Below are positions 3,175-19,593 of a DNA stretch of 23,318 bases, one piece after another. The position numbers and the translations under genes are program-made. Source of the DNA: a virus. Position 1 is the first letter of the stretch. The number at the start of each line of letters is the position of its first letter. The stretch is taken from IMG/VR virus record IMGVR_UViG_3300037247_001237, positions 1 through 23,318 of that record. One strand, given 5' to 3'. The notes below the pieces were generated by a model. That model saw only the letters and a program-made list of their open reading frames with translations. It had not been told where the DNA came from and did no database searches.

Positions 3175-3175
3175 G

Positions 3176-3204
3176 TTGCGCGGTTGAGGGGGCGCCGCTA
3201 CCCT
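3176..3204 (+). promoter_or_regulatory. candidate promoter upstream of the 134-residue gene
   Basis: A -35-like TTGCGC (3176-3181) is separated by 17 bases from a -10-like TACCCT (3199-3204). It lies right after a stop codon and 41 bases before the ATG at 3246. The -10 fits the TANNNT form shared with four other gaps in this window. The match to the classical consensus is weak on its own, so confidence rests mainly on the recurrence. Confidence 0.4.
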
Positions 3205-3228
3205 GGGCCGGCCAACTTCGGCCGGCTC
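3205..3228 (+). terminator. GC-rich hairpin, terminator-like or 5' leader hairpin
   Basis: A 9-base-pair stem (3205-3213 with 3220-3228, including one G-U pair) closes a six-base loop AACTTC. It is followed by the pyrimidine-rich tract TTCTCT. It could be an intrinsic terminator for the preceding large gene or, if the promoter at 3176-3204 is used, a hairpin at the very 5' end of the new transcript. The sequence alone does not decide. Confidence 0.45.
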
Positions 3229-3245
3229 TTCTCTGGAGACCTACG

Positions 3246-3650
3246 ATGGCTGCACTGCAAGACTCCTTGACCGCGATCGCAGAAGTCTTGGCGGGGCCGG
3301 CATCCGACGACGCCGTCGGGGTGAGCGGCGCCAACGGGACCGACATTACCGACACGACCCCGCGCGAGATTCTCGCCGCCCCCGCCTCGGGCAAGCGGTT
3401 CCGAATCACTCAGATCGTCGCCCACAACCGCACGGCGGCCGAAGTCCCGATCATCATCATCGAGGATGGTTCGGCCGTCGAACTGTACCGCTTCAACCTG
3501 GGCGCCGGCGGTGCCGCGGACAGCCGCGTGATCGTCGACCTCCATCCGCCGATCTTGGTTGCGGTCGACGAGAGCGTCGCCGGCCAGGCGACCACCGCGA
3601 CGGGCGACACGGTCGTCACGCTGCGCGGCTTCGAAGAGACGCCCGTCTAG
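3246..3650 (+). CDS. small beta-rich protein, likely virion or fibre accessory
   Basis: This 134-residue protein has a helical N-terminus (about 1-15) and a mainly beta remainder. The stretch ASGKRFRITQIVAHN followed by IIIIEDG is a pattern I associate with small phage structural proteins that form a single beta-sandwich, but I cannot name the family. There are no cysteines, no membrane segment and no signal peptide. TGGAG at 3234-3238 precedes the ATG at a normal distance. It sits between two fibre-like genes, which suggests a fibre-tip, fibre-attachment or decoration role by context. Function is otherwise unknown. Confidence 0.75.
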   Translation: MAALQDSLTAIAEVLAGPASDDAVGVSGANGTDITDTTPREILAAPASGKRFRITQIVAHNRTAAEVPIIIIEDGSAVELYRFNLGAGGAADSRVIVDLHPPILVAVDESVAGQATTATGDTVVTLRGFEETPV

Positions 3651-3707
3651 CACTCCGAAGGGAGGCTGGGGCCGCGGCGGTGAGCGAGCGGTCCCGGCCG
3701 GTCAATC

Positions 3708-4250
3708 ATGGCGGACGACACCCGTCACCAGATCAATCTCGCGCCGACCGACGCGGAGCGGGATGTATTCCTCGAATACGCCAAGCTGACCGGCGGGCCG
3801 GGCGCCGACCCAGAGGTGTTCGTCAGGCTGGTGATCGACGACATCGAGTGCATTCGGTTCCGGTCCCAGCCCACCAAGGACATCGTGATCGGCGGCCCGA
3901 TCGTCGGTGAAGAGTTCGAGGTCAGCACCACCGACAACACCGTCACGACGATCTCGACGATCCCGATTGCGGATGATACGGCCGTGGCCTTGGAGGTCCG
4001 GGGCGAGGGAGTCAGGACGAACGGTGCGGATCAGGCGGCCTACATTCGGCGCGCGTTGCTGTTCCGGCGCGGTGGAGGTCCGGCGACAATCGAGGGCTCC
4101 GTGAGCAACGAGTGGACTGTGGAATCGGCGTCCGCGTGGAACTTCACGATTGGCGTCTCCGGCAACAACTGCATCATCACCGTGAAGGGCTCCGGCAGTC
4201 ACGATGTTGACTGGTTTGCCTCGGTGATCCAGCGGGAAAGACCGCTCTAA
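3708..4250 (+). CDS. fibre-associated beta-domain protein
   Basis: The protein has 180 residues. A short N-terminal segment (1-55) is followed by a domain with the pattern TVTTISTIPI, then ALEVRGEG, then AYIRRALLFRRGGG, then SAWNFTIGVSG and finally VDWFASV. From family knowledge this layout resembles a beta-sandwich domain often found at the C-terminal end of phage tail-fibre and capsid-fibre proteins, with a terminal 'VxW' strand. Here it is a stand-alone gene. The ATG at 3708 is the only plausible start because an in-frame stop lies at 3681. It has no convincing Shine-Dalgarno sequence. A GGGAGG at 3659-3664 is too far upstream. The stop overlaps the next ATG as TAATG at 4248-4252, indicating coupling with the repeat fibre. 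Confidence 0.8.
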   Translation: MADDTRHQINLAPTDAERDVFLEYAKLTGGPGADPEVFVRLVIDDIECIRFRSQPTKDIVIGGPIVGEEFEVSTTDNTVTTISTIPIADDTAVALEVRGEGVRTNGADQAAYIRRALLFRRGGGPATIEGSVSNEWTVESASAWNFTIGVSGNNCIITVKGSGSHDVDWFASVIQRERPL

Positions 4251-5899
4251 TGGCGCAAGTGCTCTCCACTCCCTTCGGCGCGGGTCTCGCCATCACGGTC
4301 GACGCCGACCCCACCATCACGCCTTGTGCGGGGATTCCTCGCGGGTCGGTGATCGTGTTCGATGATGGGGTTGGCGAACCCAAGTGCTATCACAAACACG
4401 ACGACGCCGACACCGACGCCGACAACACGATTCGGTTCGTGATGGCCAGCGGCGGAGGCGAGGTTCAGGTCGAGTACCTCAATGTGGGCGACCCCTCGGT
4501 CCCGGCGGACGCACCGGGCGAAGCCTCATTCGGCGGGCAGGTGATAGTCGATGGGAACGTGACGATCCTATTGGCGCCCACGGCACCGACCGCGGCGGGT
4601 GCGTCCCTCACGGTCAACCCGGTGGGCGCGACGGCGGGTGCGTACTTGCTCTACCTCGGCGTGGGTGGCGTCGATTCGATGACCGTGGATGAGGCCGGCA
4701 ACGCGGTGATCGGCGTGTTGGGCAGCGGCTCGCTGTCTGTGCCGGGCGCCGGGGTTAGTAGTGAACAGTTTGGGTTGGGTGCGTCGGCAGCAGGCGCCTT
4801 CACTACGGTGATTGGCGTAAGCGCGACCGGGGCGGGCGAGCGCGCCGTCGTGATCGGCAAGGGTGCCAGCGCGCCAGACCGGGGTGCAATCGTTCTCGGT
4901 TACCTAGCAGCGTCTACCGGCACCTGGGGCATAGCAATCGGGGAAAGTGTGACGGCGGCTGCTTGGACTGTCTCGATTGGTGCCACCAGCGACGCGATGA
5001 CCACCGGCTCGATTGCCATTGGGCGCACGGCTCAGGCCGGCACGGCGAACTACAACATTGCTATCGGCACGAGCGCCAACGCGCAGGGCACCGTCGGGGG
5101 CGTGGCGATTGGCTACAACGCGCAGGCGACGACCGGCGCAAGTCCGTTCGCGCTCGGGTATAGTTCCATCGCCACTGGCAACTACTCGCTCGCCTTGGGC
5201 TACAACGCGGTTGCTTCGGGTGCCGGCGCGGTCGCCATTGGATATCACACAGACGCCACGGTCGCCTTCGGATTTGCGATGGGCTACAACGCCCAAGCGA
5301 CCGGCGGGTCGTACGCGACGGCGCTGGGGTACTCGGCGAACGCCTCGGCGGCTGCCGCGTTCGCGCTCGGCGCGTTCGCCACAAGCGCCTATGCCGGCAT
5401 TGCGCTCGGCTACCATGCCGACACGACCGCCGCGGGCCAGTTCGTGGTGGGCGCGTCGGAATCGCCGATCACCGCCATGTACATCGGTGAGGGCGTGACG
5501 AGTCCGGAGCCGAGCGACTTCACGCTCAACGCCACGGGCGGCAGTGGCACCGACATCGCCGCTGGCGAGTTTATCGTGGCCGTGGGTCGCAGCACAGGTG
5601 CCGGCGATCCGGGAAGACTCATCTTCAAGACGACCGCCGTAGAGGCCAGCAGCGCGACGCTTCAGGCGTTGCGGACGGCGCTGGTTCTCGATGACCTGAA
5701 TGCGGAGTTCAAGGGCACGGCATCGATTGCGTCTAAACTAACCGTTTTTGGTGAAATAGAGCTGAACAGTACTCTCAACCACGACGGCGCAAACATCGGC
5801 TTCTATGGCACCGCCCCCATTGGGAAGCAGATCGGAGTGGCCGTGACCGCCGCCGCGGTTCACGCCGCCCTCGTCAACCTCGGACTCATCGCCGCCTAG
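4250..5899 (+). CDS. tail fibre with YadA-head-like repeats
   Basis: This is a 549-residue fibre. Residues about 1-95 form a distinct N-terminal region, probably for attachment. Residues about 201-399 contain about 14 tandem repeats of 13-15 residues with the core A-[IL]-G-[YxR]-x-A-x-A, for example AIGYNAQATTGAS, ALGYNAVASGAGA and ALGYSANASAAAA. These match the repeats of the YadA-type head of trimeric autotransporter adhesins, which fold as a left-handed beta-roll trimer. Residues about 510-549 carry the C-terminal phage motif DGANIGFYGTAPIGKQ followed by HAALVNLGLI, common at the ends of phage fibre proteins. There is no signal peptide and no YadA membrane anchor, so it is a virion fibre, not an autotransporter. 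Codons 495-504 are unusually AT-rich. It probably binds the host receptor as a trimer. Confidence 0.88.
   Translation: MAQVLSTPFGAGLAITVDADPTITPCAGIPRGSVIVFDDGVGEPKCYHKHDDADTDADNTIRFVMASGGGEVQVEYLNVGDPSVPADAPGEASFGGQVIVDGNVTILLAPTAPTAAGASLTVNPVGATAGAYLLYLGVGGVDSMTVDEAGNAVIGVLGSGSLSVPGAGVSSEQFGLGASAAGAFTTVIGVSATGAGERAVVIGKGASAPDRGAIVLGYLAASTGTWGIAIGESVTAAAWTVSIGATSDAMTTGSIAIGRTAQAGTANYNIAIGTSANAQGTVGGVAIGYNAQATTGASPFALGYSSIATGNYSLALGYNAVASGAGAVAIGYHTDATVAFGFAMGYNAQATGGSYATALGYSANASAAAAFALGAFATSAYAGIALGYHADTTAAGQFVVGASESPITAMYIGEGVTSPEPSDFTLNATGGSGTDIAAGEFIVAVGRSTGAGDPGRLIFKTTAVEASSATLQALRTALVLDDLNAEFKGTASIASKLTVFGEIELNSTLNHDGANIGFYGTAPIGKQIGVAVTAAAVHAALVNLGLIAA
4850..5452 (+). repeat. array of about 14 YadA-head-like 13-15-residue repeats
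   Basis: Protein-level tandem repeats with consensus [SA]-[IL]-[AG]-[IL]-G-Y-x-A-x-A-x-G lie within the fibre gene. The DNA repeats are diverged, so the array looks old rather than a fresh slippage expansion. Recurring pieces include GGCTACAACGC and variants of GCGATTGG. Confidence 0.8.
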
Positions 5900-5916
5900 T
5901 TGGGGATCGGAACCAA

Positions 5917-6435
5917 ATGCTACACCTCACCCCGCAAGCCCTGCTCGACCAACTGTTGGCCGAGTCCGACAAGCCGCTCCCCGCCGAGGGCGAGGAGTCC
6001 ATCACGGATTACCTGTCGTGCGCGGTGGTGCTCGTCGACGACGCCGGCGCCGAACTTGGTGTTTCGGCAACCGTGACGCTGCGGATCGGGCAGTCGGACG
6101 ATCCCGCTGACGGCCCCGAGGCACAACGTGCGCGCATCGCGGTCTGCCACCTGCGGGGCGCCGGTAACCAACTCGGCGGACACCGTCGCCACCTGCCGAT
6201 GCGCGACCTCGACGGCACGCGCCAGATCACCGAGACGGTCGAGATTCCCGATCCGACCGACGAAGAACCCGACCGCAAGCGCGAGGAGACACAGAGGCGC
6301 GTCGTCGCACGGACACTCCGTGGCCTGCTCGGCGAACTCGTCGACGAGGCGAAGGACTGGCAGCCGCGCCCCGGCGACGGCTGGAGCAAAGTCGTCACCG
6401 CACTACGTGATGCCGCCAACCAAGGAGACCGATGA
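5917..6435 (+). CDS. acidic hypothetical protein
   Basis: The protein has 172 residues and is rich in Asp, Glu and Arg. The first 95 residues are probably beta-rich (YLSCAVVLVDDAGAELGVS, then ATVTLRIG). Residues about 105-172 are predicted to be helical and strongly charged (PDRKREETQRRVVARTLRGL). No family is recognised. A GGGGATCGG stretch upstream may serve as ribosome binding site. The last codons overlap the next gene by four bases (ATGA), so the two are translationally coupled. By position it belongs to the small group between the fibre genes and the methyltransferase. It has no membrane segment and no signal peptide. Confidence 0.72.
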   Translation: MLHLTPQALLDQLLAESDKPLPAEGEESITDYLSCAVVLVDDAGAELGVSATVTLRIGQSDDPADGPEAQRARIAVCHLRGAGNQLGGHRRHLPMRDLDGTRQITETVEIPDPTDEEPDRKREETQRRVVARTLRGLLGELVDEAKDWQPRPGDGWSKVVTALRDAANQGDR

Positions 6436-6803
6436 TGGCGATACCGAAAGCGATCCAGAAGATCTTCGACCAACTACTCCATGAGGAGCCGAGAGGATCG
6501 GGCGCTCTATTCACTGGCCCGCTCGCCAACCTGATGGCCTCCAAGATTGCGTGCGAGGATCTGGTCGAGGTCGGCGACGAGAAGGCGAAGCGCGCGGCCG
6601 ACGAGCTCCTCAAGGTCTTCACGGGGATGCTCGATTCCTACACGGCCGGGAAGAAAACAGTCGAGGATCTCTACACCACGGCTGCCGAACGGGCCGCCGC
6701 CGGGAAGAAGAAAGCGGCGGCGAAGAAGGCTCCCGCCAAGGCCGAACCGAAGGCCAAGGCGAAGCGGAAGTCCGCCAAGAAGAAGAGCGCCAAACGACAC
6801 TGA
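6432..6803 (+). CDS. small protein with histone-H1-like Lys/Ala tail
   Basis: The protein has 123 residues. Residues 1-85 form a helical, mostly acidic to neutral domain (KAIQKIFDQLL, then ADELLKVFTGML). Residues about 88-123 are a low-complexity basic tail of Lys, Ala and Pro ending AKRKSAKKKSAKRH. Such tails occur in bacterial histone-H1-like and other nucleic-acid-binding proteins. DNA or RNA binding by the tail is therefore likely, but the globular part is not recognised. Translation may start at either of two adjacent ATG codons (6432 or 6435). The gene overlaps its neighbours on both sides (ATGA at 6432-6435, TGATG at 6801-6805). The next protein begins with its own Lys-rich segment, which suggests shared targeting to DNA. 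Confidence 0.75.
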   Translation: MMAIPKAIQKIFDQLLHEEPRGSGALFTGPLANLMASKIACEDLVEVGDEKAKRAADELLKVFTGMLDSYTAGKKTVEDLYTTAAERAAAGKKKAAAKKAPAKAEPKAKAKRKSAKKKSAKRH

Positions 6804-7972
6804 TGCCACCCAAGACCACGAAGAAGAAACGCAAGCGCAAGAAGAAGGCGAGCCCGAACGGGCGTGCGCCCGCGGCGCCCCCGTACATCAACCCGAACCT
6901 CGCCGCGCTCGTCAGGCCGATCGAGGGGCTGCGGGAGGATCCGGGCAACGCGCGTCTGCATCCGCAACGCAACCTCGACGACATCCGCCGGAGCCTGTTC
7001 GCGTTCCACCAACAGACGCCGATCGTCGCCCTCAAGGACGGGACGGTCATCAAGGGCAACGGCACGCTGCGGGTCGCGCTCGCGTTGGGCTGGGATCGGA
7101 TCGCCTGCATTGAGTTCGACGGCACCGCCGAGGACGCGACAGCCTACGGGATCGCCGACAACCGCACCGGCCAGAGCTCCGAGTGGGACGACGAGAAGCT
7201 CGCTGATCTCCTGTCCAGCATCGATGGCGACGTCAGGATCAATACCGGCTTCGACGAGACCGAGATCGGCGAACTCCTGCACGGGCTCGGCCGACTCGGC
7301 ACTCCCGAGGGCGACGGCAAGACCGGCGCCGACGACGTCCCGGATCCACCGGACAAACCGATCGCCAAACCGGGCGACGTGTGGGTGATGGGTGACCACC
7401 GAATCATCTGCGGCGACGCGCTAGAGCGCGACACCTACAGCCAACTGCTCGGAGACGAGCGCCCAGAACTGCTGTTGACCGATCCGCCCTACGGAGTCGC
7501 ATACCAGGACGCGGCAAAGAACCGGCTCCAAGGCGATCTGACGCAGGCGGCGTTTCCGATAGCGGTCGCGTGCGCGGTCGAGGTGCTTTCCGACAATGTC
7601 TTGCGCCACAACGGCTACCACTCGCAATTCGAGATGGTGTTGTATGCCTGGAAGGGTTCCGGTGGTGGGTTGGACTTCTGGAACGGCGATCGCAAACAGA
7701 GCGACGTCTGGAACGTGTCGCGGGATGGCGACCGACTTCACCCGACGCAGAAACCGGTGGAAGTTTGCAGCATTCCGCTTCGCAACAGCAGCAAGGCAGG
7801 TGACATTGTCCTTGAGCCGTTCGCCGGTTCCGGCAGTACGATCATCGCGTGCGAGCAACTTGGGCGGCGGTGTCGTGCAATCGAGATCGAGCCCAGGTGG
7901 GTCGACTGTTGCGTGAAGCGCTGGGAAGAATACACTGGCCGGACTGCCGAGCGCGTAGCGCCCGGACAGTAG
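6803..7972 (+). CDS. ParB-domain DNA methyltransferase, apparently internally shortened
   Basis: The start is ATG 6803, giving 389 residues; the TGATG junction supports it over an earlier in-frame ATG at 6551. Residues 4-15 are almost all Lys and Arg. Residues about 38-140 resemble a ParB/Spo0J nuclease-like N-terminal domain (VIKGNGTLRVALALGW). Residues about 195-385 form a beta-class amino-methyltransferase. Motif IV DPPYG is at residue 227, HPTQKP is near 314, and the AdoMet motif I FAGSGST is at 340. DPPY favours N6-adenine methylation, although N4-cytosine cannot be excluded. Between GDLTQAAFPIA and VLRHNGYHSQFE the segment that usually holds the 'pGG..Y.WHA' and 'IVWdK' strands seems to be missing. 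DPPY to FAGSG spans 113 residues, against about 150 that I expect. The enzyme may be inactive or unusual. Its usual phage role is host-mimicking DNA modification to evade restriction. Confidence 0.87.
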   Translation: MPPKTTKKKRKRKKKASPNGRAPAAPPYINPNLAALVRPIEGLREDPGNARLHPQRNLDDIRRSLFAFHQQTPIVALKDGTVIKGNGTLRVALALGWDRIACIEFDGTAEDATAYGIADNRTGQSSEWDDEKLADLLSSIDGDVRINTGFDETEIGELLHGLGRLGTPEGDGKTGADDVPDPPDKPIAKPGDVWVMGDHRIICGDALERDTYSQLLGDERPELLLTDPPYGVAYQDAAKNRLQGDLTQAAFPIAVACAVEVLSDNVLRHNGYHSQFEMVLYAWKGSGGGLDFWNGDRKQSDVWNVSRDGDRLHPTQKPVEVCSIPLRNSSKAGDIVLEPFAGSGSTIIACEQLGRRCRAIEIEPRWVDCCVKRWEEYTGRTAERVAPGQ

Positions 7973-7985
7973 TAGCGGGACCATC

Positions 7986-8028
7986 GACCCCGTTGCGGCA
8001 TCGGTGCGGGGTCTCCTTGGAGGCCCCG
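7986..8028 (+). terminator. hairpin with a competing alternative stem after the methyltransferase
   Basis: Segment B (CGGGGTCTC, 8007-8015) can pair downstream with GAGGCCCCG (8020-8028), a 9-bp stem with one G-U and a CTTG loop. Its first seven bases can instead pair perfectly with GACCCCG at 7986-7992. GTTCCATT follows, a weak U-containing tail. The simplest reading is an intrinsic terminator separating the methyltransferase module from the next transcription unit. The mutually exclusive stems also resemble an attenuator. Confidence 0.5.
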
Positions 8029-8033
8029 TTCCA

Positions 8034-8062
8034 TTGACGGCGCGCCGCGAGCCCGCTACGGT
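8034..8062 (+). promoter_or_regulatory. strong candidate sigma-70-type promoter
   Basis: TTGACG (8034-8039) and TACGGT (8057-8062) are separated by exactly 17 bases. The -35 matches five of six consensus bases and the -10 fits TANNNT. It lies directly after a terminator-like hairpin and 26 bases before the ATG at 8089, as expected for the start of a new transcription unit that would include the head genes. Confidence 0.6.
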
Positions 8063-8088
8063 ACCTGGGCCTTGCACCGAGGAAACCG

Positions 8089-8847
8089 ATGGCCGACATC
8101 CCAGAAGCAGGACTCGCCCAGAAGAAGCGGCGCATCTTCGTGCAGGGGACGAACGCCGACACCGGCGCATCGGCTGGCGACTTCGCGCTCTGGAACGCGC
8201 GCTCGGGTTTCGACTGGCAGGACCAGGGCGCGGTCGACGACGTGGCGATGTTTGCGGCCTCGACCAACGTCGGCGACACCAGCCGCACCTTCAGCGTCGT
8301 GGGGATCGCGGGCGGCAAGCTGATCAAGAAGCAATTCACGCTCGACGCCTCCGACTCGCAGACCGAAATCCCCATCCCGTCCGGCCAGGCGACCGGCGGA
8401 TGGGATCAGATCCTCGACGTCATCTGGGACGACGTGAATGCAGATGCGCTCGGCAACATCTTCGTCTACGCCGTGACGGGCAACACGGCAGGCATCCCGA
8501 CTGACCTCAACTCGATCCGCGGCAAGATCGACATCGGCGAACAGCGCGCCCGCATGGCGGTGTTCGAGGTTCCTGCTGGCTACAAGGCCCGCATCCTCCG
8601 CTGGTTCGGCGCGGCCTCCGATGGTCGCCTCCGGTTGCGCGTGAGTCGCCTCGGCAACGCGCTCGGTTTCGAGACCGTGGACGAACACGACGCAGCCGGC
8701 GGACCACTCGATCGCGGGCTCCCTCCGGGCGACCCGCGGTTCAGCCTCCTGGCGGGCGCACTCGTGAAGATGACGCTCGACACCGACACCGCCGCGACCT
8801 CCACCGCCGCGGGCGGCTTCGAGATCTTGCTCCTCAAGGATGAGTAG
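8089..8847 (+). CDS. probable virion structural protein, unrecognised family
   Basis: The protein has 252 residues, is mostly predicted beta, and lacks signal or membrane segments. The pattern of NIFVYAVTGNTAGIP followed by KIDIGEQRARMAVFEVPAG recalls a phage structural domain in which an 'I..GeqrsrmA.y.VPaG' strand follows a variable beta region. That resemblance is from memory and is not proof of homology. GAGGAAACCG immediately before the ATG gives a clear ribosome binding site. It is the first gene after a good promoter candidate, and the next gene starts on the base after its stop. Position just upstream of the portal suggests a head fibre, decoration or neck accessory role. Confidence 0.75.
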   Translation: MADIPEAGLAQKKRRIFVQGTNADTGASAGDFALWNARSGFDWQDQGAVDDVAMFAASTNVGDTSRTFSVVGIAGGKLIKKQFTLDASDSQTEIPIPSGQATGGWDQILDVIWDDVNADALGNIFVYAVTGNTAGIPTDLNSIRGKIDIGEQRARMAVFEVPAGYKARILRWFGAASDGRLRLRVSRLGNALGFETVDEHDAAGGPLDRGLPPGDPRFSLLAGALVKMTLDTDTAATSTAAGGFEILLLKDE

Positions 8848-9300
8848 ATGCCCCGCACCCTGAAGGCACTGTCGCTCACGTCCGACCGCCCCTGCCAGGT
8901 TTCCTTCGCAGGCAAGACGGCGCGCGTGATCGTGTTCGTCTCGTCGGCCGGTCGCTTCAGCGTGGACGTCAAGGGCATGACGGTCGGCCAGGCTGCCCAA
9001 CAGATCACCACCAACTGCGTCGGCGTGACCGCGCACGCCACGCGCGAAGCGTCCGGGATGCAGATCTCGCACCTCCGAGCCTTCAAGGACATTCCGCTCA
9101 AGCCAGGCGTCGAGGCGATCCTCAACCTCAAGGCGCCATCGGATCGTGCTGCGTCGGACGAAGCTCCGGTGGTGCTGATCCTGATTGATCCGAACGACCC
9201 GGACGATCTGTTCTCCGAGTACGTCGAACACATGGTCCCGAGGTCCAAATGGGCGCGACGGAACAAGGCAACGGAGACGGCCGAGTCGACGGCGAGCTAA
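8848..9300 (+). CDS. hypothetical protein upstream of the portal
   Basis: This 150-residue protein has an N-terminal half that is beta-rich (RPCQVSFAGKTARVIVFVSS). A second beta segment follows near residue 109 (EAPVVLILIDPNDPDD), and the C-terminal tail is basic and then polar (SKWARRNKATETAES). No family is recognised. The ATG follows the previous stop without a gap, and the 3' end overlaps the portal start by 52 bases, so all three genes are tightly coupled. The co-location suggests a small structural or assembly protein. The long overlap would shrink if the portal began further downstream, but no good later start exists there. Confidence 0.68.
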   Translation: MPRTLKALSLTSDRPCQVSFAGKTARVIVFVSSAGRFSVDVKGMTVGQAAQQITTNCVGVTAHATREASGMQISHLRAFKDIPLKPGVEAILNLKAPSDRAASDEAPVVLILIDPNDPDDLFSEYVEHMVPRSKWARRNKATETAESTAS

Positions 9301-11579: not shown

Positions 11580-11592
11580 CCTGGAGGCACCG

Positions 11593-13422
11593 ATGACCTG
11601 GGAAGCCAAACTCGCTGCCTGCAAGTCCGCGCGGACCCTCACCGGTTTGGCGGAGGTGGCGAAGTTCCTCGCGGCGCGCGAAGACGCTACCACGCTCGGC
11701 ACGGCGGAAGCGGACGGATTCAAGGTCTACAAGCTCGTCACCGGCGACTCCAAGATCACGCTCCCGCCGGCCGAGCGCATCGAGGAGCTCGCGCGCGAGG
11801 CCGGCATCGAGTTCGAGCCCGGTATGGAGGACCGGGTCCAAGCCTTCTGGGCGTCCGACGAACGGGTCGACCGCGATGGCGACATCATCCGGCAGAACTG
11901 GGAGCTCGCCGAGTTCCTCAAGAACCCCATCATCCTCTTCGGCCATCAGTGGTTCGCGGCCCCGATCGGCGTGTCGCTGATCACCGAGGTCCGCGACCGG
12001 CTCGACGACGACTTCCAGGGCCGCGCGCTCTTCATGCTGCTGATGTTCGCAACGGCCGAGCAGAGCGAAGAGGCCGACCGTGTGTTCCGGCTCATCAAGG
12101 CCGGATTCCTGAAGACCGGGTCGGTGGGGTTCCGCCCGATCGAGATCCTCATCATCGACGACGCGGAGGAACGCGCGAGCCTCGGCCTGGGTCGCTGGGG
12201 CGTCATCTTCAACCGCTCGGCGCTGATCGAGTTCTCGATGGTTTCTGTGCCAGCCAACCCCGGCGCCCACACCCTCAGCGCAGTCAAGGCCCTGACGGAA
12301 GTCGACGTCGTGGCGCTGCGGGAGTTGCGCCGGCGTGAGTGCGTGGCGGGCCTCCACAGCATCGCCGATTACGTCGCGGCCGACAACACGCTCGCCAAGG
12401 CCCTCGCCGACGTCTTCACGTTCGAGCCGCTCGGCGATCTCACGGAGGAGATCGTCCGGGACAGCGTCTCGCCGGTCGTGCACCCTCTCGTGCCGATCGA
12501 TGAGGAGTCCGACTGGGACGGTCGGAAGGGACACCACCACAAGACCCGCAACGGTCGCGAGATGGTGTTCGAGTCCGGCGTCACGCTGGCGATGCTCCAC
12601 GAACTCAACCGCCGCGGCCGGAAGTTCGGGACGATCCCGATCGGCGCCGACCAGGCGGTGCTCGAGCACTTGGCGATGCACCTCGCCGCGTTCGGCCGTG
12701 AGACTCCTGACGGACGTGAAGGCATCGTGGCCTGGGTTGCCTGGGTCCAGCGCGGGACCATCGAAGAGTTCCACGCCTGGCTGGAGGAGCGCGGCCTCGC
12801 TGCAGTCCTCGCGGCATTCGCCCAGAAGGCGTTCCCGAACGAACACGCCTGCCGGGTGCGCGACCCCGGCGACTTTCAGGAAGATAGCTTCCGGCGCATC
12901 ACGCGCGAGACCGATGAGGGCAAGGAGTTCGCCGTCATCGTGGGCCGGCTCGAGGGCGAGGACGACACGACCGCGCAGTCGTTCCGCTACCCCACGAGCG
13001 ACTGGACGGAGTCCGAGGCGCGCGACGCCTGCACGAGCGCCGACGGGATCCTGTTCGAGCCTGCCGAGGATGACGACGAGGAAGAGGAAGAGGATCTCCA
13101 CGACGACGAGGACGACGACGACGAGGAGACCGAAGGCGCCCACGACGACGATGATGACGAAGACGAGGATGACAAGGCGCTTGCCACGCTGACCGCGTTG
13201 ATCGCGGCCGAGATCGCCCGCCAACTCGCGCCCCTCAAGTCTCAACTGCAGTCGCTCAACACCACCCTGGGGGATGTTCGGCGGTTGCTCGAGGAACAGG
13301 CCGACCGGGTCGAGCCGACCACCGACGACCCCGACCAAGACCCTGCGACGGCCGATGCCGCCACCCAAGCCTACAGTCTCATCATGGAGCTCGACCTCGA
13401 ACCCACCGCCGCCGAAGAGTAG
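11593..13422 (+). CDS. prohead protease fused to an extra domain and acidic coiled-coil (scaffold-like) tail
   Basis: The start is ATG 11593, with GGAGG at 11583-11587, giving 609 residues; the TTG at 11563 inside the portal is less likely. Residues about 80-235 are an S78/HK97 prohead protease. They include the DERVDRDGD segment, catalytic His118 in ILFGHQW and Ser215 in LIEFSMVSVPANPGA. Residues about 415-490 contain a second recognisable phage module (EHACRVRDPGDF, then FRYPTSDWTESEARDAC). Residues 492-513 and 517-528 are almost purely Asp and Glu. Residues about 530-575 form a heptad-like coiled coil (LKSQLQSLNTTLGDVRRLLE). The protease cleaves scaffold and capsid termini during maturation. 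The acidic and coiled-coil tail could act as built-in scaffold, an inference from layout since no separate scaffold gene lies between here and the capsid gene. Confidence 0.9.
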   Translation: MTWEAKLAACKSARTLTGLAEVAKFLAAREDATTLGTAEADGFKVYKLVTGDSKITLPPAERIEELAREAGIEFEPGMEDRVQAFWASDERVDRDGDIIRQNWELAEFLKNPIILFGHQWFAAPIGVSLITEVRDRLDDDFQGRALFMLLMFATAEQSEEADRVFRLIKAGFLKTGSVGFRPIEILIIDDAEERASLGLGRWGVIFNRSALIEFSMVSVPANPGAHTLSAVKALTEVDVVALRELRRRECVAGLHSIADYVAADNTLAKALADVFTFEPLGDLTEEIVRDSVSPVVHPLVPIDEESDWDGRKGHHHKTRNGREMVFESGVTLAMLHELNRRGRKFGTIPIGADQAVLEHLAMHLAAFGRETPDGREGIVAWVAWVQRGTIEEFHAWLEERGLAAVLAAFAQKAFPNEHACRVRDPGDFQEDSFRRITRETDEGKEFAVIVGRLEGEDDTTAQSFRYPTSDWTESEARDACTSADGILFEPAEDDDEEEEEDLHDDEDDDDEETEGAHDDDDDEDEDDKALATLTALIAAEIARQLAPLKSQLQSLNTTLGDVRRLLEEQADRVEPTTDDPDQDPATADAATQAYSLIMELDLEPTAAEE

Positions 13423-13439
13423 TGCGGCGCATTGGGGGG

Positions 13440-13469
13440 TTGCGGGTTTTGCGAACACACTGCTAGAAT
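13440..13469 (+). promoter_or_regulatory. candidate promoter of the major capsid gene
   Basis: TTGCGG (13440-13445) and TAGAAT (13464-13469) are 18 bases apart. TAGAAT differs from TATAAT at one position, the best -10 in the window. It is 56 bases before the capsid ATG and would give extra transcription of the most abundant virion protein. Confidence 0.58.
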
Positions 13470-13481
13470 CTGAACGATCGA

Positions 13482-13496
13482 GCGGGGATCTCCCGC
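13482..13496 (+). other. short 5' leader hairpin before the capsid gene
   Basis: A five-pair GC stem, GCGGG (13482-13486) with CCCGC (13492-13496), closes a GATCT loop. It lies a few bases after the expected transcription start of the capsid promoter and about 16 bases before the GGGGG ribosome binding tract. It might stabilise the mRNA. It is short and could be coincidental in GC-rich DNA. Confidence 0.3.
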
Positions 13497-13525
13497 GGCA
13501 CATTCATCTCTCGGGGGAAACCGTC

Positions 13526-14935
13526 ATGGCTGGCACCGCAACGCTGACCGACAAGGAACTCGCCGAGTTCCGCGCCGCGATCGAGACCTTCAAGGGCAAG
13601 GTCAAGGACTACGACGGCTGCCTCTCCGCCGTCGAACTCATCAAGGCCCAGCTCGGCGACGTCGACTTCAAGGCGATGCTCGAGACGATCGAGAAGCAAC
13701 AGGTCGCGTTCGACCGCGCCGTCAAGTATGTGCAGAACGGCGGTCTCGGCCTCGGCGTCCGGGCGATGATCCCCGGCCTCGAAGACGGCATCGGCGACTT
13801 CTCGATCCTCCGCGCGATGGGTGCCTGTACCCGCGCCGCCGGAAGCAAGGAGAAGTTCAAGGCGCTCGCGCCCCACGAGTACGAGGTGATGGAGCACGCG
13901 CGCCAGTACGTCCAGACCAAGACCAGCCAGACCAACATCGACGACCGCGGCGGATTTTTCGTCCCAGACCAGGTGATCGCCGAGGTCATCGTGGCGGTGT
14001 TCGCCAAGTCGGCCTTCCTGACCCTGCCGGGCGGCGAGGGCCAGACCCGCGTCCGCGTCATCGACGGCCTCGTCGGCGACCCGGTCATCATCCCGCGCTT
14101 CGATCGCGGAATGGAGGCGTTCTGGATCGACGAGCGCGCCCCCTACCAGGAGAGCGAGGTCACGGTCGGCCAGATCACCCTGCGGCGCAAGAAACTCACG
14201 GTGCTCGCGACCATCACGGAGGAGATGCTCCGCTGGGGCGCGTTCGGATTCGAGCAGCTGTTCCGCGACGACATGTCGACCGCGATCGCCACCGAGGTCG
14301 ACCGGACGATCATGTTCGGCAGCGGCATCGGCAACGAGCCGCGCGGCATCCTCGCGCACGACACCGTCCAGTACTTCTCGCACGACACCGAAGAGCTCAC
14401 CACCGCCGCCGGTCCCGCGACGACCGCGGGCGGCGAGCCCAACTTCGATGTCCTGCAGGACATGATGGGCGCGATGGAGGACGCGAACTTCGAGGCCGAC
14501 TCCTCCTTCGCCTACATCGCGCACCCCCGCTTCTGGCGCAAGCTGAAGCAGCTGAAGATCGACAACTTCTCCGGCCAGGCCGCGAACCAGCCGATCCTCG
14601 TCGGCATCCCGATGCTCTCGGACGCCAAGCTCCGCGAACTCGTCGGGTTCGACATCGGTCGCTCGACCCAGATCCCCACCACCGACGCGGCGGGCGCCCA
14701 GAAGGGCTGGACGACCGCCGGTGCCGGCGCGGACGCCGCGCACTCGACGGTCTTCGCGGGCAACTGGAACCAGTTCCTGTTCGCCCGCTGGTCCGGCATC
14801 GACGTGCTCGACGACGGCGGCCTGACCCGCTTCCGCAACGACGAGACGCTCATCAAGATGCGGATGTGGGCCGACCAGGCCATCCGCCAGCCCGAGGCAA
14901 TCGTCGTCTCGCCCGACGTGCGGGTCCGCGTCTAA
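13526..14935 (+). CDS. major capsid protein, HK97 fold
   Basis: The protein has 469 residues. The chosen start is ATG 13526, preceded by GGGGG at 13513-13517. The open frame extends back to 13274, but that part overlaps the protease and holds the promoter. Residues 1-75 are helical and charged, resembling the delta domain used for internal scaffolding in HK97-type capsids. Residues about 138-160 carry the typical entry to the fold (DDRGGFFVPDQVIAEVIVAVF). Around 262-276 is IMFGSGIGNEPRGIL, the 'GxG...PxGil' signature. The C-terminus (RFRNDETLIKMRMWADQAI) matches the family end. It forms the icosahedral shell and is likely trimmed by the upstream protease, although no cleavage site can be assigned by eye. 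Codon use is very strongly biased to C or G in third position, as expected for high expression. Confidence 0.94.
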   Translation: MAGTATLTDKELAEFRAAIETFKGKVKDYDGCLSAVELIKAQLGDVDFKAMLETIEKQQVAFDRAVKYVQNGGLGLGVRAMIPGLEDGIGDFSILRAMGACTRAAGSKEKFKALAPHEYEVMEHARQYVQTKTSQTNIDDRGGFFVPDQVIAEVIVAVFAKSAFLTLPGGEGQTRVRVIDGLVGDPVIIPRFDRGMEAFWIDERAPYQESEVTVGQITLRRKKLTVLATITEEMLRWGAFGFEQLFRDDMSTAIATEVDRTIMFGSGIGNEPRGILAHDTVQYFSHDTEELTTAAGPATTAGGEPNFDVLQDMMGAMEDANFEADSSFAYIAHPRFWRKLKQLKIDNFSGQAANQPILVGIPMLSDAKLRELVGFDIGRSTQIPTTDAAGAQKGWTTAGAGADAAHSTVFAGNWNQFLFARWSGIDVLDDGGLTRFRNDETLIKMRMWADQAIRQPEAIVVSPDVRVRV

Positions 14936-15027
14936 CAGCGCCCGCCCCCTCGCCTGTCTGTCACTGAGACCGACACCTTTCTGTTCTGGGGCCGACCCCG
15001 CAACCGCAACCCGCACCGGAGCAAGTC
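14936..15027 (+). other. 92-base gap after the capsid gene, no clear signal
   Basis: This gap between capsid and accessory capsid genes holds only weak structure. There is a possible four-pair GTCT/AGAC hairpin and a four-pair GGGG/CCCC hairpin, with a pyrimidine-rich CACCTTTCTGTTCT between them. Unlike the five gaps with promoter-like boxes, no TANNNT box with a suitable -35 at 17-18 bases stands out. It may be a spacer or a weak processing or termination site. Confidence 0.3.
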
Positions 15028-15543
15028 ATGGACCTCACCTTTCACACGCGGCACATCGCGTCGGTCGTGGCCGGTCCTGCGGACACGGTGGCGTCGGGTG
15101 GCGGCACGCTCAACAGCCGCAACACGGTCGACGCCCACAAGCTCGGCCGCAAGCTCACCTACCTGGTGAGCGCCGACCTGACGGGCGTCATCGAGGCGAC
15201 GCCCTTCCTGGTCGTGATCGGCACATCGATCGACGGCGGCTCCAACTTCACCGACACCCTCCGGGACGCCGACGGCGACGAGATCGTGTTCGATGTCGCG
15301 GAGACGTTCGCGGCCGGCGCGCTCGACTCCGACGGTGTGATGGTCGCCACCATCAACATTGACGGCGCCAAGGATCCGACGGGCGCGGCGATCGATGCCT
15401 ACCGCCTCGAGTTCCAGAACGACGACGCCGGCGACACGGTCGAGGTGATGGCGATGGCCGTCATCAGCGATCTCTTCGACCTGCCGGCCGTGCAGACGGC
15501 CGTCGACCAGGCGTATGGGCCGCTCTTGCGCCCGACGATCTAG
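15028..15543 (+). CDS. probable accessory capsid protein, unrecognised family
   Basis: The protein has 171 residues and is beta-rich, with many Asp, Ala and Thr residues. It has no signal peptide, cysteine or membrane segment. A repeated turn-strand pattern appears (TYLVSADLTGVIEATPFLVV, later YRLEFQNDDAGDTVEVMAMA). No family is recognised. GGAG at 15016-15019 lies before the ATG. The position immediately downstream of the major capsid gene is where decoration or head-stabilising proteins are often encoded, so an accessory capsid role is a reasonable contextual guess. The C-terminal LRPTI ends at TAG 15541-15543, just before a hairpin-promoter element, so it may close the head transcription unit. 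Confidence 0.75.
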   Translation: MDLTFHTRHIASVVAGPADTVASGGGTLNSRNTVDAHKLGRKLTYLVSADLTGVIEATPFLVVIGTSIDGGSNFTDTLRDADGDEIVFDVAETFAAGALDSDGVMVATINIDGAKDPTGAAIDAYRLEFQNDDAGDTVEVMAMAVISDLFDLPAVQTAVDQAYGPLLRPTI

Positions 15544-15578
15544 CCCTTCCACAGAGCACCAACTTCGCTTCGCGCAAG

Positions 15579-15602
15579 GCCCTCGGCGTTTACGTCGAGG
15601 GC
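15579..15602 (+). terminator. hairpin downstream of the head genes
   Basis: GCCCTCGGCG (15579-15588) pairs with CGTCGAGGGC (15593-15602) over ten pairs including one G-U, with a TTTA loop. There is no proper U tract afterwards, only CTCTCGCGTT, so intrinsic termination is possible but not clear. The loop and 3' arm overlap the -35 box of the next promoter candidate. Confidence 0.5.
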
Positions 15603-15617
15603 CTCTCGCGTTAGACT
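15589..15617 (+). promoter_or_regulatory. candidate promoter embedded in a hairpin
   Basis: TTTACG (15589-15594) and TAGACT (15612-15617) are separated by 17 bases. The -10 fits TANNNT. Only nine bases separate it from ATG 15627, so a transcript starting here would have almost no leader. Confidence 0.42.
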
Positions 15618-15626
15618 GGCGGCGCC

Positions 15627-15785
15627 ATGCTGCAGCAAGACGTCAACGTCAGGAACCAGGGTGACACCGACCCGGTCAAGCAGGCGCCGCCCGCGAAGGA
15701 CGATGTCCTGCGGGTGAAGCTCGAGCTCGGCCTGGTGAAGCGGGTCCGCCTGCAGCTGTTCGATCGCCAGCAAGGTGACGCATGA
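15627..15785 (+). CDS. 52-residue basic microprotein
   Basis: This short frame encodes 52 residues. The N-terminal half is polar (MLQQDVNVRNQGDTDPVKQ) and the C-terminal half is amphipathic and basic (VLRVKLELGLVKRVRLQLF). No family is recognised. Support comes from the ATGA overlap with the next gene at 15782-15785, GC-rich third codon positions, and the promoter candidate directly upstream. No convincing Shine-Dalgarno sequence precedes the ATG, so translation may be leaderless or depend on read-through transcription. A minor connector or assembly accessory role is only a positional guess. Confidence 0.55.
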   Translation: MLQQDVNVRNQGDTDPVKQAPPAKDDVLRVKLELGLVKRVRLQLFDRQQGDA

Positions 15786-16135
15786 GCACGCTCGACAGCA
15801 AGCTGACGGTGGTGCGCGGGACCGCGGCCGACGTGGAGTTCACGCTGGTCGACCAGTTCGGCGAGGTCGAGGATCTGCAGGGCTTCACGGACGGGCGGGT
15901 GGCGTTCGTGGAGGAGCTGGGCGATGCTGCGCTCGTCGACAAGGCGATCGCCACTGCCGACATCGAGCCCGGCGGCCGTAAGGGCGTCGTGCAGTTCAGC
16001 CTCACCGGAGCCGAGACGGCACTGTTCCTCCCCAGTAGCGTAATCGGCACGTTGGAGCTCGACGTACCGCCCTCAGGCACCGAGAAGAAACACAGCGAGA
16101 CGTTCGTCGTGCTGGTCAAGCCGAAGGTGATCTGA
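15782..16135 (+). CDS. Ig-like or beta-sandwich hypothetical protein
   Basis: The protein has 117 residues. The pattern KLTVVRGTAADVEFTLVDQF, then FTDGRVAFVEELGD, then KGVVQFSLTGAETALF and IGTLELDV fits the small Ig-like beta-sandwich seen in phage baseplate and tail-associated proteins (BppU N-terminal-like), where 'G....l.ftl.D..G...dL.G' is followed by 'G.v.f.l....t' and 'G.y..El'. This is a fold-level impression and not a firm family call. The first codons overlap the microprotein gene, and the last base of the stop is the first base of the connector ATG (TGATG at 16133-16137). The context, between capsid and connector genes, suggests a neck or decoration component. Confidence 0.72.
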   Translation: MSTLDSKLTVVRGTAADVEFTLVDQFGEVEDLQGFTDGRVAFVEELGDAALVDKAIATADIEPGGRKGVVQFSLTGAETALFLPSSVIGTLELDVPPSGTEKKHSETFVVLVKPKVI

Positions 16136-16761
16136 TGAGCATCTTCCCGATCTCACGCGCGCGGGAAACGCTCCCGGAGATGGACCTCCAGGAGTTGACG
16201 TTCCTCCGCGACTCGGTCGTGACGTTGTGGGAGAGCGCGACGCGACGTCTCTGGGATCGGCGCGTCGATCACGTCCAGGAGATCAACCTCGACGAACGGT
16301 ACCTGCAGCGAAAGCGCTTCATCTACCCGGAGCTCTACCCGATCGAGACGATCGCGGTGCGGGAGTTCGACGACGACGAAGACGTTGCGACGGAGCCGGA
16401 CCTGGTGGCCGGCACCGACTATGTCCTGCGCGCCACGAAGGGCGAGATCAAGCGTCTCACCAGGCCGACCTTCGGCGTGACGCTGAACCGTGACGCCAAC
16501 TGGAAAGAGAACGTCCGGCTCACCATCACGGGCGGCTACGGCGCCGATCCGGCCGCACGGATCCCCGAGGAGATCACGCGCGCCCTGCAGGCACAGCTGG
16601 CCTTCATGGCGCAACGGCTAAACTCGGATCGCATCGCGCTGTCGAGTCAGACGGTTTCGTTCGGCGGGACCAACGCCGCCTCGCAGTTCCTGCAGCCCGC
16701 CCACTGGGCTGCGCTCTTCCGCCAGACCGTGAACCGGAAGATGCTCCGCGCCCGCTGGTAG
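16135..16761 (+). CDS. head-tail connector protein, HK97 gp6-like
   Basis: The protein has 208 residues. The N-terminal helical region (ELTFLRDSVVTLWESATRRLW) resembles the gp6/gp15-like adaptor family, in which small helical proteins dock under the portal. The middle contains the characteristic YPELYPIETIAVREFD segment and a beta portion (GTDYVLRATKGEIKRL). The end returns to helices (IPEEITRALQAQLAFMAQRL). This order of helices, YP..PI strand, DY strand and helices is typical of the connector family. The protein would form a ring extending the portal channel and helping to retain packaged DNA. It is coupled upstream by TGATG, and the next gene begins two bases after its stop. Confidence 0.82.
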   Translation: MSIFPISRARETLPEMDLQELTFLRDSVVTLWESATRRLWDRRVDHVQEINLDERYLQRKRFIYPELYPIETIAVREFDDDEDVATEPDLVAGTDYVLRATKGEIKRLTRPTFGVTLNRDANWKENVRLTITGGYGADPAARIPEEITRALQAQLAFMAQRLNSDRIALSSQTVSFGGTNAASQFLQPAHWAALFRQTVNRKMLRARW

Positions 16762-16763
16762 CG

Positions 16764-17462
16764 ATGACGCTGAACGTGAGCATTCAACTCTCGCCCGAGA
16801 CGTCTCGCTTCCTCCGACGGGTGGGCGACACGCTCGGGGCGGCGAAGCTCAGGCGGGAACTCATCCGGTTCAATCAGAAGCAGGCGCAGAAGGCGGCCGG
16901 CACTGTCGTCAGGACGCAGTTGTCCGGCCAGGCGCTCGGCCGGCGCACCGGCACGCTCGCCCGATCGGTGGAGGGCCGCGTCGGCACGACCGCCGGACGG
17001 TTGCCCGCGATGCGGATCGGCATCTTCAAAGGCCCCGCCACCAGGTACGCGGCCGTCCAGGAGTTCGGCACCAAGGGGAAGAATCCCGCGAGTCCGATCC
17101 CCACGATCCGGCCCATCACCGCGAAGGCGCTGGCGATCCCGATCAATGACAGTCTGACGGGCGCGGGCGTGGCGAAGTTCCTCGGCCCGCGCAGCGACCC
17201 GCGCGACCTGGTCTTCATCCCGTTCGCCCGGAACACGATCGTCATCGGCGCACTGTTCGAGCGCAACCGGATCCGCGCGGCGCAGACGGCCGCGGTCGGC
17301 ACCCTGAACCTCCGAGAGGTCAAGGCCGCCTACCTGCTCATGACGGAGGTCGACATCGCGCCGACCTTCTGGCTCTCGCGTGGCGTCGATCTCTACATCC
17401 CCACCTACACCGAGGAACTGCTAGACTTCCTGGGCGACTTCATCGTGAGCGCGAGGATCTGA
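16764..17462 (+). CDS. neck or tail-completion protein, HK97 gp10-like
   Basis: The protein has 232 residues. The family pattern is clear: an N-terminal helix with KAAGTVVRTQL, then LGRRTGTLARSVEGRV, then RYAAVQEFGTKGK followed by IPTIRPITAKALAIP. This matches the gp10 / 'tail-component' family that bridges connector and tail tube. Members often end with an arginine-proline-phenylalanine-leucine segment. Here the sequence APTFWLSRGVDLYIP near residues 197-211 may be its counterpart. It is longer than many gp10 homologues (about 110-160 residues), with an extra segment between about 120 and 195. It sits between the connector and terminator genes, as expected, and its TGA overlaps the next ATG. 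Confidence 0.82.
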   Translation: MTLNVSIQLSPETSRFLRRVGDTLGAAKLRRELIRFNQKQAQKAAGTVVRTQLSGQALGRRTGTLARSVEGRVGTTAGRLPAMRIGIFKGPATRYAAVQEFGTKGKNPASPIPTIRPITAKALAIPINDSLTGAGVAKFLGPRSDPRDLVFIPFARNTIVIGALFERNRIRAAQTAAVGTLNLREVKAAYLLMTEVDIAPTFWLSRGVDLYIPTYTEELLDFLGDFIVSARI

Positions 17463-17932
17463 TGCCCGACGCCCCACCCGCCGAGACACCGAAACTGCGA
17501 TCGAAGCGACGGCAATTGTCGGAGGCGCTCACCAAGATCTGGCGGGAGCTCCGGAACGGCGACTACTTCGTCCGCCGCGGCGGGATCGAGTGGGCGACTT
17601 TCGACTTCAACGCCCACCCCCTCGCGGTCTCGATCATGCTGCCCAACTTCCCGGTCCTGGTCCCAAACGGCAGGGGGATCATGGAGTTCGAGATCCTGCA
17701 GCGGGCGCGGAACTGGCAGGCCGAACAGAAGGACATCGACGACGAGTCGCTTGACGACTTGTGGGACGATGTCTCAGAGGCTATAAAGAGGTTGTTGCTG
17801 GTGAGGCTCGACGAGGATCAGACCGTCCCGGTCATCCTGCACGTCACCGAGTCCGCGCCCGCGACCGAGGCAGCCAACGTCGAACAGCTCGGCGTGCAGG
17901 GTCTCACCGTGAAGATCGAGTTCGACTTCTAA
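17462..17932 (+). CDS. tail terminator candidate
   Basis: The protein has 156 residues. The sequence itself does not match a family I can name with certainty. It has a basic N-terminus (LRSKRRQLSEALTKIW), a central beta-hairpin (YFVRRGGIEWATFDF), a helix of DDLWDDVSEAIKRLLL and a final strand ending VQGLTVKIEFDF. Ending on an 'l.v.ief.' strand, and the position between the gp10-like protein and the tail tube protein, is what tail terminator proteins (gpU-like role) show. The terminator caps the tube after it reaches the length set by the tape measure. TGATG coupling to the upstream gene supports co-assembly. Alternative: another neck protein. Confidence 0.68.
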   Translation: MPDAPPAETPKLRSKRRQLSEALTKIWRELRNGDYFVRRGGIEWATFDFNAHPLAVSIMLPNFPVLVPNGRGIMEFEILQRARNWQAEQKDIDDESLDDLWDDVSEAIKRLLLVRLDEDQTVPVILHVTESAPATEAANVEQLGVQGLTVKIEFDF

Positions 17933-17951
17933 CCGGAACCGGAGAACCGCC

Positions 17952-18767
17952 ATGCCCAACGTAGGCTTCCAGGACATTTGGGTCGTCGGTGCGCGTGTGT
18001 TCTTCCGGCGCGATCCGATCTTGAGCGTCGTCCAGCCCATCCGCGACCTCGGTGTCGTGCAGGCGTTCACGCCCAACATCGAGACCGAAGAGGCCGAGTG
18101 CGAGGACACCGACGGCGGCGTCCGTGTGGTGGTCGCCAAGCAGGTCACGCGGGCCGAGGAGTCCTATGACCTCGAGCTCAAGAACCTCGGGCCGGACGGG
18201 CTCTCGGATCTGTTCCTCTCGACGCCCGCGGAGGAGTTCACCCAGTCCGCGACGCCGGTCGTCGACGCCGATCAGTTGGCGACGAACCCGGTCCGTAAGG
18301 GCTTCCTGATGCCGGTCGAGACCGCGCTCGGCGTCCACATCCAGGATCTCGCCAGCGTCGACGCCGTCAAGGATCCGACCGGCGTCACGACGTTCGTCGA
18401 GGGCACCGACTACGACGTCACCTCCCTGCAGCGCGGCTTCATCCGAATCATCGAGTCCGGTTCGATCGTTGAGGGTGACCTCCTGAAGCTCTCCTTCACG
18501 CCGAACGCGATCTCGGGGCTGCGGAAGGTCGTGCCGCTCGGCCAGACGCTCATCCAGGGCGACATCGAGATCTACCTGGGCCGCGAGAACAACACGCGCC
18601 AGACCGTCCGCAAGGGCCGCGCGTCGTTGCTCCCCACCGGCACCGCGTTCGCCATCGACGACTTCTCGACCTACACGCTCCAGGCGACCTTCCTCAGCGA
18701 CCTCACGCTGGCGGAGCCCGCCGGCGACATGGTCTCCTTCCTCGGCGACCTCCCCGCCACGTCGTAG
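17952..18767 (+). CDS. major tail tube protein
   Basis: The protein has 271 residues and is beta-rich. A segment from about residue 118 reads like tail tube proteins: PVETALGVHIQDLASV, then FVEGTDYDVTSLQRGFIRII, then GDLLKLSFTPNAISGLRKVV and GDIEIYLGREN. The '...gtDY.v....g.i' feature and the position just upstream of the tail chaperone and tape measure genes make this the best candidate for the subunit that polymerises as rings around the tape measure. GGAG at 17941-17944 precedes the ATG. A promoter and hairpin element follows the gene, possibly allowing different levels of tube and chaperone. The gpV-like homology is inferred from pattern and context, not from a search. Confidence 0.82.
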   Translation: MPNVGFQDIWVVGARVFFRRDPILSVVQPIRDLGVVQAFTPNIETEEAECEDTDGGVRVVVAKQVTRAEESYDLELKNLGPDGLSDLFLSTPAEEFTQSATPVVDADQLATNPVRKGFLMPVETALGVHIQDLASVDAVKDPTGVTTFVEGTDYDVTSLQRGFIRIIESGSIVEGDLLKLSFTPNAISGLRKVVPLGQTLIQGDIEIYLGRENNTRQTVRKGRASLLPTGTAFAIDDFSTYTLQATFLSDLTLAEPAGDMVSFLGDLPATS

Positions 18768-18793
18768 CGCGACGGGCGCGCCGGCTGTACTAT
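18765..18793 (+). promoter_or_regulatory. candidate promoter upstream of the tail chaperone
   Basis: TAGCGC (18765-18770) and TACTAT (18788-18793) are separated by 17 bases. The -10 matches TATAAT at four of six positions and fits TANNNT. The -35 is weak and overlaps the stop codon of the tail tube gene. Confidence 0.42.
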
Positions 18794-18800
18794 CCTCGGA

Positions 18801-18826
18801 GCGCGCCCGCCATCGTGCGGGCGCGT
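18801..18826 (+). terminator. strong GC hairpin after the tail tube gene
   Basis: GCGCGCCCGC (18801-18810) pairs with GCGGGCGCGT (18817-18826) over ten pairs including one terminal G-U; the loop is CATCGT. TCCATGTAA follows rather than a U tract. It could partly terminate transcription after the tail tube gene. Alternatively it could be a leader hairpin, since it begins right at the expected start of a transcript from the promoter at 18765-18793. Confidence 0.5.
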
Positions 18827-18856
18827 TCCATGTAACTACAGCCCAAGGTACAGCCC

Positions 18857-19450: not shown

Positions 19451-19593
19451 GACGGGTCGCGCGCGCGAACAAGAGGGCTCGCGCGGCCGAGATCACCGCC
19501 ACCGCGATGGCGATCGCCGGCGCCCTGGATAAGAAGGGGCACGCGCAACTGAGGAAAGAAGTCACCTACCTGCAGAGGGGCGACGATGGTTGA
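18857..19593 (+). CDS. tail assembly chaperone, -1 frameshift (GT-like) product
   Basis: Joining the first 148 codons to the -1 frame at GGGG 19297-19300 gives about 245 residues. The join reads naturally as GIDSIAKG then DGSGQRITVDLGDAF. The extension has strong C/G third-position bias and recognisable protein character (YSIPQYKYFLRRVARANKR, and near the end KEVTYLQRGDDG). It stops at TGA 19591-19593, overlapping the tape measure ATG at 19586. In siphophages the GT form tethers the tape measure while G binds tail tube protein. Alternative explanations are an independent gene with a non-standard start such as ATT 19318, or a one-base sequence error. Because overlap, order and bias all fit, the frameshift is the favoured reading. 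Confidence 0.72.
19295..19301 (+). other. candidate -1 ribosomal frameshift site
   Basis: The sequence AAG GGG A in the upstream frame lets a glycine tRNA on GGG (19298-19300) slip back one base and still pair with GGG (19297-19299). It is not a canonical X-XXY-YYZ heptamer, because the preceding AAG would re-pair poorly with CAA. The other purine-rich candidate, GGGGGAAGGGAAAG at 19234-19247, would discard the well-biased codons between it and 19300, so it is less likely. Confidence 0.5.

Follow-up and report, generated by a model that had tools for sequence, protein, structure and literature searches.

Do the gaps between the structural genes of a phage carry one composite regulatory element in several copies, or separate signals that mark the ends and starts of transcription units? 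The question is raised by the IMG/VR virus record IMGVR_UViG_3300037247_001237, analysed here over its complete length of 23,318 bp (GC 66%; hereafter the window), which carries a head-tail gene cluster on the + strand and has no DNA-level match among the 50,697 phage records searched. In the gaps before the genes starting at 3246, 8089, 13526, 15627 and 18857 (gaps 1 to 5), the initial annotation had described a promoter-like pair of boxes together with a GC-rich hairpin, and had taken the five as a single recurring element. The comparison presented below suggests a different arrangement: the gaps probably hold two independent and ordinary transcription signals, namely partial terminators behind genes for abundant virion proteins and host-type promoters particular to this phage.

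Hairpins in the gaps of the window

Hairpins are present at about the expected positions in all five gaps and are strong in four of them. The fifth, in the leader of the major capsid protein (MCP) gene, is ordinary, and a further strong hairpin, behind gene 3246, had been missed. Here 'decoration' is a label assigned by gene position, MTP denotes the major tail protein and TAC the tail assembly chaperone.

3205..3228, + strand: hairpin with a 9-bp stem and the tail TTCTCTGG; -18.8 kcal/mol, among the top 30 of the 30-nt windows (gap 1)
3666..3697, + strand: strong hairpin behind gene 3246, in a gap without promoter boxes
8005..8030, + strand: terminator-like hairpin behind the ParB-methyltransferase gene, with the tail TTCCATTG (gap 2)
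13482..13496, + strand: weak hairpin in the capsid gene leader, probably not meaningful, as 16% of coding windows are equally strong (gap 3)
15577..15604, + strand: perfect 12-bp hairpin behind the decoration gene, terminator-like; rank 2 of the window (gap 4)
18799..18830, + strand: 13-bp hairpin between the MTP and TAC genes, terminator-like, without a supported promoter; rank 1 of the window (gap 5)

In the ranking of 30-nt windows, 18799 and 15576 come first and second, and 8003 and 3200 are also among the top 30. The four core stems are followed by a mean of 3.5 T in the next 8 nt, against a background of 1.2. No match to Rfam 15 was found in the window at the gathering score, and a tRNA search was likewise empty.

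Promoter-like sites in the window

Sites were scored against a sigma70 matrix built from generic consensus frequencies, with P values given gap by gap. The simple pattern TTGN3-N16..18-TAN3T has five forward matches in the whole window and none on the reverse strand, and three of the five lie in the named gaps. This exceeds chance: dinucleotide shuffles of the gaps lead to an expectation of 0.04 gaps with a match, and none of 5000 shuffles reaches three. The matrix finds the following sites.

8034..8062, + strand: predicted promoter TTGACG-17-TACGGT, the best forward site (gap P = 0.0022)
13440..13469, + strand: predicted promoter TTGCGG-18-TAGAAT before the MCP gene (ATG 13526), the second best forward site (gap P = 0.0065)
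15589..15617, + strand: predicted promoter TTTACG-17-TAGACT, the third best forward site (gap P = 0.0007)
3176..3204, + strand: probable sigma70-type promoter TTGCGC-17-TACCCT before gene 3246, the ninth forward site (gap P = 0.017) and one of the five TTGN3/TAN3T pairs

The three best forward sites of the 23.3 kb thus all fall in gaps that make up about 3% of the sequence, and no reverse site equals them. The box pairs first described exist in all five gaps, three of them being the best in the window; that at 3176 is weaker, while the pair TAGCGC/TACTAT in gap 5 (18768-18856) is unsupported by the sigma70 matrix, the best site there having P = 0.15. A TANNNT occurs by chance in an 89-bp stretch with a probability of about 0.12.

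Three of the four supported -10 boxes have the form GCTANNNT, which resembles alphaproteobacterial promoters as well. The suggestion that TANNNT points to an actinobacterial host is not borne out, since this motif is not diagnostic and the sole relative placed in a named host bin is alphaproteobacterial (a contig, NVWK01000008.1, of a Robiginitomaculum metagenome-assembled genome).

The positions of promoter and hairpin relative to one another vary. In gap 1 the predicted start site (approximately 3210-3211) falls within the 5' arm of the hairpin. In gap 2 the hairpin precedes the promoter, from which a leader of about 20 nt with GAGGAAA would run to ATG 8089. The hairpin of gap 3 is weak; that of gap 4 holds the -35 box in its loop, with the predicted start at or adjoining ATG 15627; and that of gap 5 has no supported promoter. 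A single recurring element, whose hairpin would work within the leader of every local mRNA, can be read at face value from the presence of both box types in five gaps and from the small leader hairpin of gap 3. Given the P value of the fifth promoter, the weakness of the third hairpin and the lack of a fixed geometry, such an element is very improbable, and the relatives described below separate its two components further.

Hairpins conserved by junction in relatives

Scans with the whole MCP or portal as single proteins found no relatives. A conserved 134-aa stretch of the portal led to three diverged contigs, and alignments built from these found the family: the portal alignment matches 40 viral contigs and the one bacterial-bin contig named above, and capsid and tail protein alignments add further loci. 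Most of their proteins are 30-46% identical to those of the window, with 30-45% for MCP and portal, and none of the relatives is closer than about 46% over the proteins searched. The gene order portal, protease, MCP, decoration, later MTP, chaperone and tape measure protein (TMP) is kept. Genes were called with a small home-made caller based on codon usage, which matched the hand-made calls for the window except in the tail chaperone region, where they were set by hand. The set comprises 715 de-duplicated junctions; hairpins were counted over gaps of 40-400 bp, window included, and a hairpin was classed as strong if it ranked within the top 0.5% for the locus concerned.

The structural genes leave little room between them, the median gap being -1 for the neck region and 15 bp before the MTP gene; three junctions are wider, with medians of 67 bp (MCP to decoration), 83 bp (decoration to next gene) and 103 bp (MTP to chaperone). 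It is at these three that strong hairpins accumulate: 13 of 28 gaps behind the MCP gene (1.5 expected), 16 of 21 behind the decoration gene (2.5 expected) and 16 of 21 behind the MTP gene (2.0 expected), counts which are not independent events because the contigs are related. Between protease and MCP genes there is a strong hairpin in none of 15 gaps. The sequences of the hairpins vary between contigs while their position is kept; in the close pair L022/L033 the stems are maintained, with changes that mostly preserve pairing, and the flanks drift.

T residues were counted from the end of the perfect core stem. The hairpins had at first seemed to be entirely without U-tails, a view that was rejected because the folds had absorbed the tail into the stem; counting from the core stem reveals a directional T enrichment. 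The 8 nt after the stem contain 3.36 T behind the decoration gene and 3.31 behind the MTP gene, against a background of 1.7 and reverse-strand values of 2.3 and 1.5, respectively. At least four T follow 14 of the 27 stems at these two junctions, where about two would be expected. Among the nearest relatives is L093 (MTP 46% identical), with an 11-bp GC stem followed by TGTTTTCT between its MTP and TAC genes. For two of the three junctions, the orientation of the tails is an argument that transcription of the coding strand terminates there. Enrichment, conservation by junction and strand-specific tails are direct observations on the sequences; termination is what we infer from them.

The hairpins might instead stabilise or process messenger RNA (mRNA): one long late transcript would be processed by cutting or trimming, with exonucleases blocked by the hairpins at the 3' ends of its capsid, decoration and tail segments, whose life would thereby be prolonged. 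This explanation is unlikely for the set as a whole. That the hairpin junctions fit abundant proteins agrees with it, as do the hairpins behind the MCP gene, whose GC stems are long, whose loops are in several cases GAAA or TTCG, and which are not followed by a T-rich tail. The strand-specific T enrichment behind the decoration and MTP genes points to termination there, as do clear U-tracts in L093 and in Geobacillus phage GBK2. Since the hairpins between MCP and decoration genes lack the T-rich tail, they need another function, and they are the one part that standard termination fails to explain. A tentative proposal, with a rather low chance of being right, is that these hairpins, which have extended GC stems, often carry GAAA loops and lack a U-tail, are a class of RNA elements conserved in position rather than terminators; by shielding or processing the part of a common late mRNA that lies upstream of them, they would adjust the ratios of the virion proteins.

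Promoter-like sites in relatives

The behaviour of the promoter-like sites differs. Gaps scoring P < 0.05 number 0/14 between protease and MCP, 2/27 between MCP and decoration, 0/20 behind decoration and 1/20 between MTP and chaperone, 3/81 in total. Other gaps of the same contigs, scored with the same matrix, reach P < 0.05 in 16/86 cases and P < 0.01 in 10, compared with 3 and 0 on the reverse strand, which indicates that the method has power. This lack of conservation at the junction level implies that the window's promoters are its own, or at least unshared with relatives at such a distance. As the relatives keep hairpins at junctions where promoter-like pairs sit at chance, the two are best regarded as separate signals that occur independently, which leaves the composite element of the initial annotation without support.

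The same counts give some encouragement to the idea that the pairs in the window arose by chance or are relics, the cluster being a single transcript from an upstream promoter: only 3/81 gaps score at the four junctions, though the matrix finds promoters elsewhere. Such an origin would leave it a coincidence that the forward strand has its three best sites within so small a fraction of the sequence, and it is judged improbable.

In one sub-lineage of relatives, near-consensus promoters (TTGACA-17-TATAAT or TACAAT) are seen at L020 1921-2008, L022 3114-3196 and L033 3342-3429. They end exactly at the called start codon, which may mean either that the mRNA is leaderless or that the start was called too far upstream, and their gaps also contain a very strong hairpin.

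Proposed ends and starts of transcription units

The favoured interpretation, of partial terminators and separate promoters, can be set out as follows. The hairpins behind the decoration and MTP genes, and those that follow the genes preceding gaps 1 and 2, would act as partial intrinsic terminators at which some of the RNA polymerase arriving from upstream drops off, so that the genes beyond each hairpin would be transcribed less than the gene before it. Host sigma70-type promoters before 8089, 13526 (capsid) and 15627, and probably before 3246, would start new transcripts. In gaps 1, 2 and 4 the predicted start lies beyond the hairpin or inside its 5' arm; a local transcript would lack the full hairpin and hence escape termination, the hairpin forming in read-through RNA only. 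In gap 3 the promoter alone is convincing, and in gap 5 the hairpin alone. Each signal would then mark where a transcription unit begins or stops, rather than forming part of a composite element. The activity of the promoters, their start sites and any effect on protein ratios are, like termination, predictions from the DNA. In this form the earlier proposal that internal signals could set mRNA levels segment by segment is well supported by the sequence, if not as the work of one repeated element.

Several observations weigh against this interpretation. The tails of the window's hairpins are short and imperfect (CTCGCGTT, ATGTAACT, TTCTCTGG, TTCCATTG), and the stems between MCP and decoration genes in relatives have no T-rich tail (1.8 vs 1.5). 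Simple consensus scans of the window return 0 promoters and no excess of terminators over shuffles (9 vs 8.6 by chance), a lack of signal that can be put down to the AT-richer consensus for which they are tuned. Transcription from the promoter before 15627 would yield an almost leaderless mRNA. Finally, since conservation at each junction is at chance level, each of the window's promoters rests on one genome.

If correct, this amounts to a comparative rule for an uncultured phage group: in a nearly gapless structural cluster, the gaps with strong hairpins follow genes whose products are required in hundreds of copies. It would be a simple means of tuning virion stoichiometry, and could help to spot decoration protein and major tail genes in unannotated phages.

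Genes of the cluster

The genes around these signals are listed below.

3246..3650, + strand: probable head decoration protein gene, 34-39% identical to proteins encoded directly after the MCP gene in L007, L016 and L027
start 6803, + strand: ParB-methyltransferase gene
start 9249, + strand: portal gene with a Mu-F-like C-terminal part
start 11593, + strand: prohead protease gene
13526..14935, + strand: MCP gene, HK97 fold family (Pfam Phage_capsid 2e-31; phrog_10)
15028..15543, + strand: gene at the decoration protein position; the post-MCP position is conserved in relatives, with a blastp match to the post-MCP gene of L049
between the decoration-position gene (15028) and the MTP gene (17952), + strand: small genes, then neck genes
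17952..18767, + strand: MTP gene (phrog_807 7e-13), 33-41% identical to relatives
18857..19450, + strand: TAC gene, by position and homology to same-position genes of relatives
start 19586, + strand: TMP gene

The predicted model of the gene 3246 product is mostly beta (pLDDT 69). A fold search with it gave weak matches, the best being to a protrusion of Omono River virus and to a fibre domain from Bdellovibrio (TM approximately 0.45), and the decoration role is therefore suggested by gene position in relatives. Relatives of this gene adjoin the 3' side of the capsid gene in L007, L016, L027 and L046; since they directly follow the capsid gene elsewhere, a head-type gene appears to lie about 10 kb upstream of that position here. 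It adjoins a long fibre-like gene, and a hairpin stands behind it as well as behind its relative in L027 and L046.

Upstream of the portal, positions 556-8088 contain fibre-like, YadA-repeat, lysine-rich and ParB-methyltransferase genes, where isolated phages have the order terminase-portal; no terminase was recognised anywhere in the record. The protein encoded at 4250-5899, within the phage structural region, has YadA head repeats of the trimeric adhesin type and is probably a fibre. Between the MTP and TMP genes, the + strand open reading frames (ORFs) 18857-19450 and 19144-19593 overlap in relative frame -1. The region 18857-19593 resembles a tail assembly chaperone with a programmed frameshift, and the overlap contains a GGGAAAG heptamer at 19241, although its phase is not the usual one.

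Comparison with known systems

Copies of the SAS/ESAS, recurring intergenic elements near gene starts in cluster K mycobacteriophages, have sequence in common, unlike the hairpins described here, which share shape and position only. Among isolated phages, the record of Geobacillus phage GBK2 has hairpins with T-run tails behind the capsid gene and behind gene 11, and strong hairpins likewise stand behind the capsid gene in those of Arthrobacter phage LittleTokyo and Streptomyces phage OnionKnight. In Listeria phage CKA15, promoter motifs precede the capsid gene, and efficient termination sites are not called intrinsic by standard tools (PMC12282133). Bacillus phage SPP1, from a different phage family, has late gene clusters delimited by stem-loop terminators, predicted with standard tools (PMC6316719), and like the window has hairpin-bounded late clusters without a shared late promoter consensus.

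The gene junction is the same in mycobacteriophage Corndog, in which a stem-loop with a 12-bp stem and the short T-rich tail TTTCT stands behind the major tail subunit gene (PMC4351075). There a single junction of the structural cluster was described, compared with hairpins at up to three in the lineage of the window, and sequence homology is not demonstrated. In T7 (phi10 promoter and Tphi terminator) and Pseudomonas phage LUZ100, a local promoter and a terminator flank the MCP gene (PMC10134795); the resemblance to the window is that, within a late cluster, an abundant capsid-type product is encoded between a promoter and a terminator hairpin. Their promoter serves a phage RNA polymerase and its activity has been measured, whereas those predicted in the window look host-type; in addition, the hairpin of the window stands behind the decoration gene rather than the MCP gene. 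The principle of this organisation is already known, and the window extends it to an uncultured lineage.

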